Below, in pieces: positions 31,518 to 58,027 of a stretch of DNA of 64,000 bases. The stretch comes from Akkermansiaceae bacterium (GTDB taxonomy: Bacteria > Verrucomicrobiota > Verrucomicrobiia > Verrucomicrobiales > Akkermansiaceae). Both the position numbers and the translations under genes were made by a program. Below the pieces are notes generated by a model. The model saw only the letters and a program-made list of their open reading frames with translations, was not told the origin of the DNA and made no database searches. Where the stretch lies: assembly GCA_023301765.1 (NCBI GenBank), contig JALZUC010000028.1, positions 1 to 64,000 of the forward strand. Direction: 5' to 3'. Position 1 is the first letter of the stretch; every line of letters begins with the position of its first letter.

Positions 31518-33338
31518 TTATTTTTTGTTTTTTACCTGCGGTGGCACGCGGCCAAATGCTGGGTCGTAGACTGGAATTTCCATTCCTGCTGGAGTCTGCC
31601 AGCCAGCCTTAGGCTTGTGTGTCACATACGCATAGTATGGTGTAGCAGTAAGCTCAGGGCTGATAAAGAGAGGAGCTAATTCAGTAACCCCCTTTTTCAG
31701 CGATACTTTGAATGTCACTTCCTTAGCGCCCTTTGGAATATCTTTACTGATGTCAATATCACCTATAACCATACGCGCTTGCTCATAGTTATATGCTACT
31801 CCATAAGTGCCATCGTTGATCGCCTTATCGGCCTCTACCGGCCAGCGGCGCAGGGAGATTTCATAGTCGCCATCTTGCTCTACCTCGATAGCCCAGTGAG
31901 CCTTCACAGCTACCTTACCATCTTTAATATGATTCTGGTGCCATGGTGGCAGCCTATTGAGTAGCCAGTCATGTGATGATAGAGCTACTACAGGTGACTT
32001 ATCTGAGCCGATCACCATGTAGCTTACTAGTCCATGCTCCTTAGAAACATCATCCCAGAACTTATCATACTCACCACGAAGGCGTGCGAGCATTTCTGGA
32101 TTCTCAGCAGCTATATCCGCGGCCTGCTTCGGGTCTTCTTTGATATTGTATAGCTCTTTTCCATTCACAAGGCGCCAGTCCTCAGTCATTACAGCGCTTT
32201 GTTTCCATTTAATGGGATTCACCACACGCTGGGACTCTACAATCAATGTGCGAGGTGACCATTTTTCACCATCAGTATAGAGAAGTTCCTTCACATTAGA
32301 CCCATCAAACTTGATTTCTGGTGCCTTAAGTTCACAGATATCTATGAATGTTGGCAGGACATCAATATGTGCAGTTAGATTTTTAATAGATTTTCCAGCA
32401 GTAATCCCTCCCTTAGGCCATCTTAGCAAGAAGGGCACGCGGTGACCACCTTCATATTCAGAGCCTTTTCTTCCTCTCATACCGCCATCATAGCCCCTCT
32501 TACCATTAACTCCTGCTGACGTACCATTATCGGTCATGTATACCAGAATAGTATTCTCAGTCAGACCTTCGTCATCCAGAGTTTTCATGAGCTTGGCCAT
32601 ATTATCATCGATGTTGGTGATCATGCCGTAGAAGGGAACATTGGGCACACCTGGCTTGCCCTTATAAGGTGTAGTATACTCCTCTGGGCAGTAATATGGG
32701 CTGTGCGGTGCATTTGTAGAAATATAGGCAAGAAAGGGTTTCTCTTTGTTTGCTTTGATAAACTTAATACCTTCATCAAACCAGATGTCTGTGCAGTATC
32801 CCTCGAACTGTTTCAACTTTCCATTCACGATGTAACTATCATCAAAATAATCATTACCCCAGAAATCAGGTGCCTGCCCTACACCACCTGCTTGGTGGTA
32901 AACAGAGTGCTGGAAACCTCGGTCTTCTGGGCGGTATGGATAACAGTCACCAAGGTGCCATTTACCAAACATACCAGTAGCATAGCCATTATCACTGAAG
33001 ATATTAGCCATCGTCACCTCACGTCTGCGAAGCATGCTACGCCCCTGCACAGTGTGCCATACGCCTATGCGATTAGAGTAACGGCCAGTCATAAGGGCGC
33101 CACGAGTGGGAGCACAGGTAGGGTCTACATGGAAGTTATTAAGCAGTGTGCTCTGCGTACGTAGTTTATCAATATTAGGTGTTTTGATCACTTTATTTCC
33201 CGTGAACCCTAAATCACCATAGCCTTGGTCATCTGTAATTACTATGATCACATTCGGCTTTTCCGCTGCGTTACTGGCTGAAATTACTGTTATACTGGTA
33301 GCAGCAATAACTGATTTTAAAAAACATTTGATAGTCAT
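31518..33338 (-). CDS. Secreted sulfatase (FGly-type arylsulfatase)
   Basis: The 606-residue protein has a signal peptide ending around SNA (residue 23). The catalytic elements are intact: metal-binding TDDQGYGD (D36, D37), the maturation motif CAPTR with Cys75 for formylglycine, FGKWHLGD (K126, H128) and YMTDNGTS. The C-terminal part carries a small beta domain typical of verrucomicrobial and planctomycete sulfatases. It would remove sulfate esters from a marine polysaccharide; FGE (SumF-like) is not in this window. Confidence 0.93.
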
Positions 33339-54059: not shown

Positions 54060-55787
54060 CTAGTGTTTACTAATAATCAAACCACTAAGTGCAGACTGTA
54101 TAGCTTCACTGCCTTTTACTGGGCCAGTAATAACTCTGATCGTGTAAAAGCCTCCAGCAACTGGATTATTTATAATAACAGGCACCTGAATAGCTCCGGG
54201 CTCATCAGCTAGGATTTCGCTATCTGTCATAGATTCATCCTTTGAACTCATAACCTCTATACGGTAGTCCCCCGCATTTTGTATGAGATAGAGGTTTACC
54301 GTAACTGAGCTCGGATCCTTTCTTGGCATCCTTAACTGAATTTCATATCCAGCATCTTCAGATTGCTCGTTATTTCTAACAACCGATGCTCCAGGAAATA
54401 AAACTTTCTCATTCTTCGTAAATCGAATCGGGTTTTCAGTCATCTTAACCGGACTGACTTGCCCAAAGGTCTGTATACTTAAAATATACCCTCCCCCCCC
54501 AGTCACCAATTTAGAGGAAATAGGTATATCAACACCCACCATCCAGTCCACAGTATCACTGCTATCTAGAGTCACTGTTTTAGGATTATTTTGCTTCCTC
54601 AAAGAATGAATAAAAACTTCCTTACCAATACTCAGCGAATGTAGCCCTGACGTATCTTTTACTACAGAAGCACCATCGCTTTCACTAGAATCACCTCGTT
54701 TTGTTGCAAAGATTACGCCAAGAATTAAAAACATTACCAACCCTCCGATTATAGAAAACATCAACACCTTTTCCTTTTTGGCACTTTTAGCAACATCGTT
54801 CACAACCTGCGCGTGAGCTCCACTTAATGGATCTCCCGCTGCTGTATTAGCTGCGCTATTATTAACAGCAGAAGTAGCCATAGCCGCCCCCCCCTGTGCC
54901 ACAGCCATACCTGCTGCTGCCTCTGATATCCTAGCTGTTTGTTCGAGTTTTTTAGCCGCCGCATCAGCCAGCTCAAATGCATGAAGAGTTATCATAGCGG
55001 CTGAAACATCTTGAGGGCGCTTTTCTGGATCTACATCAATGAGCGACATAATCCATTTCACAAAATCAGGCTTAAGCTTGTCTACATACTGATCAACACT
55101 CGGTATCCCCTCGCCATGATAGGCAGCTAAACACTCTTCACTAGATTTACTTGAAAATGGATGACCTCCCACTAACGCAGTGTAGCAAAGCTGACCTAAC
55201 ATAAATAAATCTGCCCTAGCATCTGGCTCCACACCTTCCTGATGAAGTTCCGGAGCCAAAATGACAGGGTCAGCCACCTTAACTTTCTCTGCCTTAACCA
55301 TAGATGCCAGTTGGTTAAGCCCCAAGTCTACTAAAAGATATCTATGACCTCCAGACGCTCTATTTATTCGTTTAATAGAACCCGTGTGGAGTGCCCCATG
55401 GAAGACTCCAGACTCATGAGCTGCATGTAGCGCCTCTAACATATCAGCGGCCATTCTATAAACTCCAGCCTCACTCAAAGCTCCAGTTTGTAATCGCTCA
55501 GCTAGAGACTCCCCTTCGATAAGCTGGGAAAATACATATGCGCCACCGTCCGCTATATGTACATCATAGATCGTCATCATGTTAGGGTGCTGCATAGAAC
55601 CCATCTTCCCTGTGTATATCCCAAAATCCCTCCGCCATGAATCATCCCTTGTTTTTACCTCAGGATTATCACCATACTCAATATACCTACACATCACGCG
55701 GCGCTGTAGCATAGTGTCATCTGCCAAATAGACAGCGCCTAATATATCCTCTCCTAGCTGACTAGTTATTTGGTATCGTTCTGTCAT
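54060..55787 (-). CDS. Transmembrane pseudokinase (Ser/Thr kinase fold, catalytic residues missing)
   Basis: The 575-residue protein has a kinase-like domain (residues 4-275). The glycine loop is weakened (LGEDILGAVY), the VAIK Lys is R34, the helix-C Glu aligns with Y58, HRD reads H130-G-A132 and the later K and N read H134 and S137; only the DFG Asp remains (D154-L-G). One membrane helix (341-362) separates this from a C-terminal beta-rich exported part, about 210 residues, that resembles PPC/beta-sandwich domains. Two C8 runs lie in the gene (54493-54500 and 54887-54894). It is likely a signalling or scaffold pseudoenzyme. Confidence 0.85.
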   Translation of the reverse strand: MTERYQITSQLGEDILGAVYLADDTMLQRRVMCRYIEYGDNPEVKTRDDSWRRDFGIYTGKMGSMQHPNMMTIYDVHIADGGAYVFSQLIEGESLAERLQTGALSEAGVYRMAADMLEALHAAHESGVFHGALHTGSIKRINRASGGHRYLLVDLGLNQLASMVKAEKVKVADPVILAPELHQEGVEPDARADLFMLGQLCYTALVGGHPFSSKSSEECLAAYHGEGIPSVDQYVDKLKPDFVKWIMSLIDVDPEKRPQDVSAAMITLHAFELADAAAKKLEQTARISEAAAGMAVAQGGAAMATSAVNNSAANTAAGDPLSGAHAQVVNDVAKSAKKEKVLMFSIIGGLVMFLILGVIFATKRGDSSESDGASVVKDTSGLHSLSIGKEVFIHSLRKQNNPKTVTLDSSDTVDWMVGVDIPISSKLVTGGGGYILSIQTFGQVSPVKMTENPIRFTKNEKVLFPGASVVRNNEQSEDAGYEIQLRMPRKDPSSVTVNLYLIQNAGDYRIEVMSSKDESMTDSEILADEPGAIQVPVIINNPVAGGFYTIRVITGPVKGSEAIQSALSGLIISKH

Positions 55788-55977: not shown

Positions 55978-57507
55978 CTACTCAGCAGCCTTCGCCTTAA
56001 GATCAAATTTCTTATCACTAACACGCTCAATCTCTACAAAAAAAGCACCCAGCTCTCTAGTCAGAGCTAGTTGCCCTGTAAACCAACACTCCATATCAAT
56101 AATACCAGCGTCCGCATCCATCTGTAACGTTACCGAGGTGGCACCTTTCATCACCTTAAGCTGCGCCACATTCCCTCCTAAGCGGATGAAGGCCGTGCCT
56201 CCCGCCAGCTTCATTAGCTCTTTATACTGACCATTAGCAGTATCGCTAGGCAGAAGGCTTGCCGTGATTTTATATCTACCAGAACGAGTAATATTTACAG
56301 CCCAGCTACCTGAATAAGCAGGAAATTCATCCTTATATTTTGGGTTGTTTTTAAGCCCCCCAAGGATAGCTAAAAGGTCATCTTGATAGACCATAGCCAT
56401 CGAATTAGGTGATTCACCATTTACATCAATAATCTTGGAAGCACGCCAATCAAGAGCTGAAAGTCTTACCACACGCCCATCATGCTGCCCTACGTCAAAA
56501 GCACGCGTATCATGCAGCGCCTTACCTGCCAGCTGCCACCACTGGCCATGTGCAGTAAGTAGCTGTCTATGCATCTGCTGATGCTCTACCAGATCTAATG
56601 GCTGAACGAGATCGGCGGCAAAACCTTTTGCCCGATATAAATTTATACCATTCACTAAAGCTAAACCCTCACCAATAACTAAAGAACCACGGTGTCGGTT
56701 TCTCTCTGCGGACTCAGTCACTGGCCAGTTTCCATAATGAAAAAAACGAAAGGCTGATTTTGAACTCACCTTTAGCCCTACCATATCACATATCAATCTA
56801 TGTAGATCCCAATCAGTCTCGATACTAATGGTAGACTTTTTCACCCCTCTAGTAAAACACTGCCACCTAGCCGGATGGTAATATTTCTGAGCCAAATCCC
56901 CGCCCGATTCTAAAATCACCACAATAGCCGGATGCTGGTTTTTTTCCGCCCACTTAGATAAGGCATCCATAATAGAGGCTCTACTCAGCTCTCTACCTTC
57001 AGCGATATAAACAAAGCTAGATTGATCAAAACTCTCTATCTCTAACGGTGCCTCCCCACTCTTCTCCCAGCGATCAGTCAGAGTATTACGCAGCGCCGCA
57101 GTATGAGCATACGCCCTATCAAAGCCCCTGCTCTGCGGTTCAAACGGCTCATTTACCCCCAAAGCCCACGCACCATAAAAGCAAGCTTGATACCCTAGAT
57201 TCTTAAAAAGGTTTGCTAAAGTTTCACCCCTAACAGCCTTCCTACGCCAGTCCGCATCAGCTACTACCCCCTGCTCCAATGCTGGCGTGCCAAAAAGTAA
57301 TGCAGTCTGCACAGCCGCCCTGCCAGGACTAGCGAGACAGCTCCCACTTTGTTTAGCCCATCCCTCTGGCTTTATAAAATCAAGTTCAACTCCAGACTTA
57401 ACCTCTGTAGCATTCAGCTGGATCACAAATACATGAGGACGCTCCTGCTCCGCCTTTGCGAAACCAGAAATACACACCATCACTATCAATAGAAACCTTG
57501 CCAGCAT
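55978..57507 (-). CDS. Secreted pseudosulfatase (sulfatase fold without catalytic residues)
   Basis: About 509 residues from ATG at 57507, where a signal peptide begins; an upstream ATG at 57537 overlaps the phosphatase start. The sulfatase alignment is visible (SPGRAAVQTALLFG, ANLFKNLGYQACFYGAWALG, EPQSRGFDRAYAH). The Cys/Ser of the C-x-P-x-R motif is Ala59, GKWHLG reads GAWALG (A113, A115), and the metal-binding DDxGYGD block is absent. The C-terminal region (about 400-500) keeps the beta domain found in the intact sulfatase at 31518-33338. An aberrant alignment using C57 is possible but would need an insertion. Probably a non-catalytic binding protein. Confidence 0.8.
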   Translation of the reverse strand: MLARFLLIVMVCISGFAKAEQERPHVFVIQLNATEVKSGVELDFIKPEGWAKQSGSCLASPGRAAVQTALLFGTPALEQGVVADADWRRKAVRGETLANLFKNLGYQACFYGAWALGVNEPFEPQSRGFDRAYAHTAALRNTLTDRWEKSGEAPLEIESFDQSSFVYIAEGRELSRASIMDALSKWAEKNQHPAIVVILESGGDLAQKYYHPARWQCFTRGVKKSTISIETDWDLHRLICDMVGLKVSSKSAFRFFHYGNWPVTESAERNRHRGSLVIGEGLALVNGINLYRAKGFAADLVQPLDLVEHQQMHRQLLTAHGQWWQLAGKALHDTRAFDVGQHDGRVVRLSALDWRASKIIDVNGESPNSMAMVYQDDLLAILGGLKNNPKYKDEFPAYSGSWAVNITRSGRYKITASLLPSDTANGQYKELMKLAGGTAFIRLGGNVAQLKVMKGATSVTLQMDADAGIIDMECWFTGQLALTRELGAFFVEIERVSDKKFDLKAKAAE

Positions 57508-57535
57508 CACGCATAGAATACAACATTCCAACATC

Positions 57536-58027
57536 ATGCCAAGAACACCTTTTCATGTCTTATTCGTCTGTATGGGAAACATCTGTAGATCACCAGCTGG
57601 TGAAAACATCTTCCGCCACCAGGTAAAATCCGCCGGCCTGGAAAACGATATCATCATCGACTCCGCCGGCACTCACAACTACCATACTGGCAAAGGGCCT
57701 GATCACCGTATGTGCGCTACTCTCAAATCACGTAGTATACCAGCAGATGGTAAGGCTCGCCTATTCAACACTCAGGATTTTTATAACTTTGATCTTATAC
57801 TCACGATGGATACGGAGAACTATCAAAGAGTCACCGCACAAGAGCCAGATGATGACTATCGCGCTAAAGTTAGAATGTTTACCTCCTACTGCACACAGTC
57901 AGAAAATCAAATCCCAGATGTGCCAGACCCCTACTATGGTGGTGACGAAGGCTTCGAGCAGGTGGCCGATATATTAGTAGACGGTTGCGCAGAGATTATC
58001 CACCAGTACCAGCAAGGTACGCTCTAA
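57536..58027 (+). CDS. Low-molecular-weight protein tyrosine phosphatase
   Basis: The 163-residue protein shows the P-loop VCMGNICRSP (C12 to R18) and the Asp of DPYYGG (general acid region), plus the DSAGTHNYHTG block. The enzyme dephosphorylates tyrosine (and sometimes arginine) residues in the cytosol. Its start codon overlaps by 2 bases the alternative start of the divergent pseudosulfatase gene, so the promoters must lie inside each other's coding or upstream sequence. Confidence 0.93.
   Translation: MPRTPFHVLFVCMGNICRSPAGENIFRHQVKSAGLENDIIIDSAGTHNYHTGKGPDHRMCATLKSRSIPADGKARLFNTQDFYNFDLILTMDTENYQRVTAQEPDDDYRAKVRMFTSYCTQSENQIPDVPDPYYGGDEGFEQVADILVDGCAEIIHQYQQGTL

Follow-up and report, generated by a model that had tools for sequence, protein, structure and literature searches.

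A sulfatase homologue without an active site is retained at a conserved locus in Akkermansiaceae and may act as a binding protein

The window analyzed here is a stretch of 64,000 nucleotides from a 2.46-Mb Akkermansiaceae genome that belongs to a marine relative of Akkermansia. An open reading frame of 509 codons starts on its reverse strand from an ATG at 57507 (Table 1). An alternative upstream ATG at 57537 is possible; the start reading MLAR is the one kept among orthologues. Given its signal peptide-like N-terminus (MLARFLLIVMVCISGFAKA), the product is probably a secreted protein. Pfam searches of the 509-aa protein found PF00884 (Sulfatase) as the sole family, with a weak match above the cut-off (E 3.8e-6, residues 69–202) that is the lowest score among the 30 Pfam sulfatase matches in the genome. 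The nucleophile Cys is kept in all 24 other sulfatases of the genome with a readable signature, and a PF03781 sulfatase-modifying/formylglycine-enzyme-type domain is present. Taken together, these two observations indicate that the organism is probably capable of sulfatase chemistry. Another sulfatase gene in the window (31518–33338, reverse strand) encodes a full active site and has carrageenan sulfatases as its nearest solved relatives; its C-terminal extension gives a weak BLAST alignment with that of the 509-aa protein. The neighboring Ser/Thr-kinase-like gene (54060–55787, reverse strand) reads HGAL for the kinase HRDL, and its VMCR segment has Arg in place of the usual Lys; the HGA change is also found in three genus relatives (L201–L203). 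This gene seems to encode a conserved, membrane-spanning pseudokinase, so that two dead enzymes would lie side by side.

Table 1. Features of the sulfatase homologue and its flanking region, with positions in the window.
Feature	Positions	Strand	Basis
Pseudosulfatase gene, 509 aa, start MLAR	55978..57507	-	ORF reading; start conserved in orthologues
C-terminal stretch, CBM6/CBM35-like beta-sandwich (predicted), residues 330-509	55981..56520	-	Separate model; Foldseek, VIA; within most conserved half
Sulfatase/alkaline-phosphatase fold without active site (predicted), residues 22-336	56500..57444	-	AlphaFold model, VIA-align
Position of DN metal pair, S201-G202	56902..56907	-	Alignment
Positions of GKWH Lys and His, Ala113 and Ala115	57163..57171	-	Alignment
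Motif D84-x-D86-W87-R88-R89	57241..57258	-	D84, D86, W87 in 10/10 pseudosulfatases, 0/10 intact relatives
Position of helper Arg of CxPSR, Gln67	57307..57309	-	Alignment
Position of formylglycine Cys, Arg63	57319..57321	-	Ungapped alignment with intact and intermediate relatives
Position of first metal pair (DD in active sulfatases), N32-A33	57409..57414	-	Alignment
Putative signal peptide, residues 1-19	57451..57507	-	Sequence; helix in structure model
Promoter-like site TTGGCA-16-TATTCT	57515..57542	-	Consensus match only; box and distance to ATG kept in orthologues
Divergent low-molecular-weight protein tyrosine phosphatase gene, marks the syntenic slot	57536..58027	+	Pfam LMWPc, E 1.2e-42; slot comparison

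The catalytic center of this protein has been lost. In alignments with intact relatives, the DD, Cys, Arg, Lys, His, second His, DN, and Lys positions are all replaced or deleted, which covers every active-site position that can be aligned. The initial annotation had counted three lost catalytic sites; the loss is real, but its extent was understated. Among the features of active S1 (formylglycine) sulfatases, the protein lacks the nucleophile in C/S-x-P/A-S/T-R (Arg63, with Gln67 at the helper Arg), the metal ligands DD and DN (N32-A33 and S201-G202), and the Lys and His of GKWH (Ala113 and Ala115). The last two absences agree with what had been read from the sequence before, whereas the formylglycine Cys had been placed at Ala59, which is four residues off in the ungapped alignment; this correction leaves the loss of the nucleophile unaffected. 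The register of Arg63 is fixed by A69...G73 and by relatives in which SPTCAPTR or APGGAATR is still present, and the freshwater relatives (APGGAATRAELLSG) and intact relatives (SPTCAPTRAALMTG) align without gaps to the window segment SPGRAAVQTALLFG. Moreover, the TG glycine of sulfatases comes ten residues after the Cys, and this spacing applied to G73 leads to Arg63. The resemblance of ASPGR to CSPSR arises only from a change of SPT, upstream in SPTC, to SPG. The idea that the protein is an active sulfatase that relies on an atypical site, such as a modified C57 or another nucleophile, is contradicted by the sequence and extremely improbable: C57 is near the nucleophile motif, but precedes the nucleophile position by six residues and so is not the modified residue, it is replaced in orthologues such as those of G013 and G002, and all metal ligands, the Lys, and the His are gone. 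Descent from the S1 lineage is evident from the PF00884 match, the structural similarity to arylsulfatases (VIA Z 18), and the grouping with intact sulfatases of the same locus in the tree (99/98). The product is a member of this lineage by descent only, as a pseudoenzyme, and its pseudoenzyme status is close to certain.

The predicted structure retains the sulfatase fold, as the initial annotation had proposed. For the AlphaFold model of the full protein (pLDDT 79, from 12 sequences), VIA-align of residues 22–336 gives Z scores of 18.3 to 3ed4 and 18.0 to human arylsulfatase A (1auk). The C-terminal part modeled alone has a pLDDT of 87.6. Its top Foldseek and VIA matches are mostly CBM6, CBM35, and CBM36 modules, with a moderate best Z of 8.2 at 10–15% identity, and insecticidal crystal-protein beta-sandwich domains are also among them; a Z of about 8 at such identity is a level that a common beta-sandwich can also reach. 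Pfam and NCBIfam searches of the C-terminal part found no named domain and no Pfam CBM match, and a phmmer search of the PDB with the C-terminus of an intact copy found no match. The model is thus suggestive of a CBM6/CBM35-like fold for the C-terminal domain, without being proof of it.

Conserved pseudosulfatases do occur in Verrucomicrobia. Orthologues are present in 10 of the 14 genus genomes (the window's own counted) and in a more distant genome of another genus (G026), and all of them lack the active site. Judged from these sequences, and set against the 24 of 24 other sulfatases that keep the Cys, the loss of the site is not a chance event. Identity to the window protein is 40–54% in most genus orthologues and 36% in G004; the closest orthologue is 53% identical, compared with 67–91% for most neighboring genes. 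Deletions in the sulfatase half are found in some species, and in G001 the gene is split across two contigs. The gap to the divergent phosphatase gene is 28 nt in most orthologue loci and about 4.5 kb in G012. Among the four genus genomes that lack the orthologue, a FecCD-type transporter gene adjoins the phosphatase gene in G005, G006, and G010, and the contig of G003 is too short to tell. This absence indicates that the gene is dispensable in these four genomes. The gene downstream of the pseudosulfatase differs between species while the pseudosulfatase is kept, and an operon role with this gene was rejected. In G013, a series of short repeats of identical sequence (translated as MLPCWVLESRQS) and, behind it, a Cas1-like ORF (identified by eye) lie about 0.5–5 kb downstream of the pseudosulfatase gene; these repeats are probably a CRISPR array.

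The same slot beside the phosphatase gene is occupied by intact sulfatases in other genera. Among 59 further genomes of the family, nine have a sulfatase homologue there, with seven intact and two dead copies (G079 and G108); G031, G019, and G014 also carry intact copies in the slot. A contig scan with the single window protein as the query found no relative, whereas an alignment-based query succeeded and recovered orthologues in Akkermansiaceae and Verrucomicrobiales MAGs. Four freshwater copies came from this second scan; they have Gly in place of the Cys, keep most metal ligands, and in some cases also retain the Lys and His. The phosphatase gene is near the sulfatase homologue in three of these four. 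Within the order-wide sample, full-length homologues with the C-terminus of the pseudosulfatase are found only in one family (f1). In other genera, a conserved protein of about 460 aa (MKN.W..PA..L..GA.GG...GK) follows the phosphatase or sulfatase gene (L090, L091, L092, L183, L185, and many of the slot loci L116–L175).

In the phylogeny, which is limited by long branches, the slot sequences cluster together (99/98), separately from the other sulfatases of the genome. The genus copies and that of G026 form one clade (100/100), the freshwater copies and that of G108 form another (87/98), and the dead copy of G079 pairs with the intact copy of G063 (99/99). The best tree fits three losses of the active site. 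In AU tests, a single clade of all dead copies is not formally rejected (p 0.085), and one origin for all dead copies except that of G079 is fully compatible with the data (p 0.40). Although the former p value leaves room for it, a single origin of all dead copies was set aside on the basis of the pairing of G079 with G063, and G079 appears to have lost its active site separately. For the remaining copies, T62G and P65A are shared by the genus and freshwater sequences, which suggests a common ancestor that had already lost the Cys, and thus one Cys loss for this combined lineage.

The gene remains under purifying selection in spite of these losses, and the initial view of a dead yet retained sulfatase holds for every genus orthologue. 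Every complete copy has about 500 open codons. Whole-gene pairwise dN/dS is 0.13–0.22 among the dead copies where computable (the lowest value rests on near-saturated dS, and synonymous sites are near-saturated between many pairs), 0.09–0.14 for two pairs of intact copies, and 0.26 for the dead copy of G079 against the intact copy of G063. In the intact copies, mean identity is 0.74 in the N-terminal half and 0.66 in the C-terminal half, whereas the genus dead copies have 0.32 and 0.54, respectively. Constraint has therefore moved from the catalytic half to the C-terminal half in the dead copies. Moreover, the dead clade has 24 conserved residues that none of the ten intact copies shares (excluding a start-alignment artifact at residue 2). 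These include D84, D86, and W87, found in all ten pseudosulfatases, and R89, found in nine of ten; R88 is conserved in intact copies too. D84xD86W87 is a newly gained motif of the pseudosulfatases. A decaying pseudogene in which frameshifts have yet to appear could account for the fast evolution, the deletions in the sulfatase half, and the absence from four genus genomes. However, this explanation is strongly disfavored by the open frames, the dN/dS values, the gained invariant motif, and the conserved start and upstream box, although the −35 hexamer of this box overlaps the phosphatase start codons and part of its conservation may be coding. The gene does not appear to be decaying, and the promoter-like box, start, dN/dS, and motif fit a functional non-catalytic protein. 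It is unlikely that the new residues (e.g., D84, D86, R88, H313, and H320) confer a different catalytic activity. Several charged residues are indeed newly conserved in the pseudosulfatase clade, but none of the ancestral metal ligands survives, the newly conserved positions fall in two different regions of the chain, and the Pfam and NCBIfam searches found no known catalytic signature.

Among known systems, the nearest solved structures to the intact slot copy are S1_19 carrageenan sulfatases (E 3e-57). These enzymes (ZgCgsA, 9hh2/9hh3; PsCgsB, 6bia/6b0j) are the closest solved relatives of both the intact copy and the pseudosulfatase profile, and they share the fold of residues 22–336. Judged from these relatives, the pseudosulfatase is probably close to the S1_19 branch. 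In contrast to the pseudosulfatase, which has none of the site, they are active with a full site, and the C-terminal extension has no sequence match in the PDB. The predicted fold of the C-terminal domain resembles that of CBM6 and CBM35 modules, with the differences in identity, Z score, and Pfam matches given above. An earlier hint of inactive S1 proteins in the same superphylum comes from the SulfAtlas paper, in which nine S1 sequences of Lentisphaerae and Planctomycetes without the site Arg are suspected to be inactive (PMC5066984). The Arg alone is reported lost there, whereas the pseudosulfatase has lost the nucleophile, metal ligands, Lys, and His, and its retention is documented. A partial literature search found no paper on pseudosulfatases. 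Heparanase-2, an inactive relative of heparanase (PMC12406646), provides a parallel in the way it works, as a glycan-processing enzyme kept after its death; its fold and organism are unrelated.

The loss of catalysis together with retained selection in about ten related species points to a function other than sulfate cutting. The best explanation, with a probability of roughly 0.55, is a secreted pseudosulfatase that acts as a glycan- or partner-binding protein rather than a reaction center. This reading draws on the intact sulfatases that other genera carry at this locus and on the variable downstream genes beside a constant pseudosulfatase, and the binding role itself is inferred. Glycan binding is plausible because the C-terminal model resembles CBM6/CBM35 and constraint is now stronger in the C-terminal half; the ligand may be sulfated, or the protein may recruit a partner, as the initial annotation had proposed. 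Akkermansiaceae have been linked with the use of sulfated polysaccharides (PMC8857213). A protein–protein role fits the same data.

Many sulfatases oligomerize, and a less probable alternative to glycan binding is a dead subunit or decoy that makes protein contacts to regulate active sulfatases or other secreted proteins, or to serve as their scaffold. The presence of a dead paralogue alongside some 24–29 active-looking sulfatases in the genome and the location of the invariant new DxDW motif in the dead domain are consistent with such a role. Nevertheless, no intact sulfatase gene adjoins the pseudosulfatase gene, the nearest on the contig being over 20 kb away, and the stronger conservation is in the CBM-like half rather than the sulfatase half. 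Under the preferred reading of a binding protein, the ancestor would have been a sulfatase of the S1 type, near the S1_19 branch of carrageenan sulfatases, and the gene would have stayed at its present locus throughout. The nucleophile may have been lost first, followed by the metal and substrate ligands. The CBM6/35-like domain would then most likely hold a polysaccharide, either algal or from the surface of the cell itself, and the dead domain, which carries the new DxDW motif, would serve as a binding or docking surface.

A further and more tentative proposal, for which the odds are somewhat below even, is that catalysis was lost at least twice at this fixed locus while the gene was kept, because the C-terminal half of the ancestral enzyme also served another, non-catalytic function from the start. 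If this is true, the intact copies are two-function proteins and the dead copies keep the second function only. Sulfatase counts serve to infer which bacteria degrade sulfated algal or mucin glycans, and the pseudosulfatase family would be annotated as "sulfatase" though unable to be one. One locus here holds an unusually complete series, from intact copies through copies that have lost the Cys and kept most else to copies that have lost everything. Together with the shift of constraint between the two halves, this series provides a test case for the transition from an enzyme to a non-catalytic protein.
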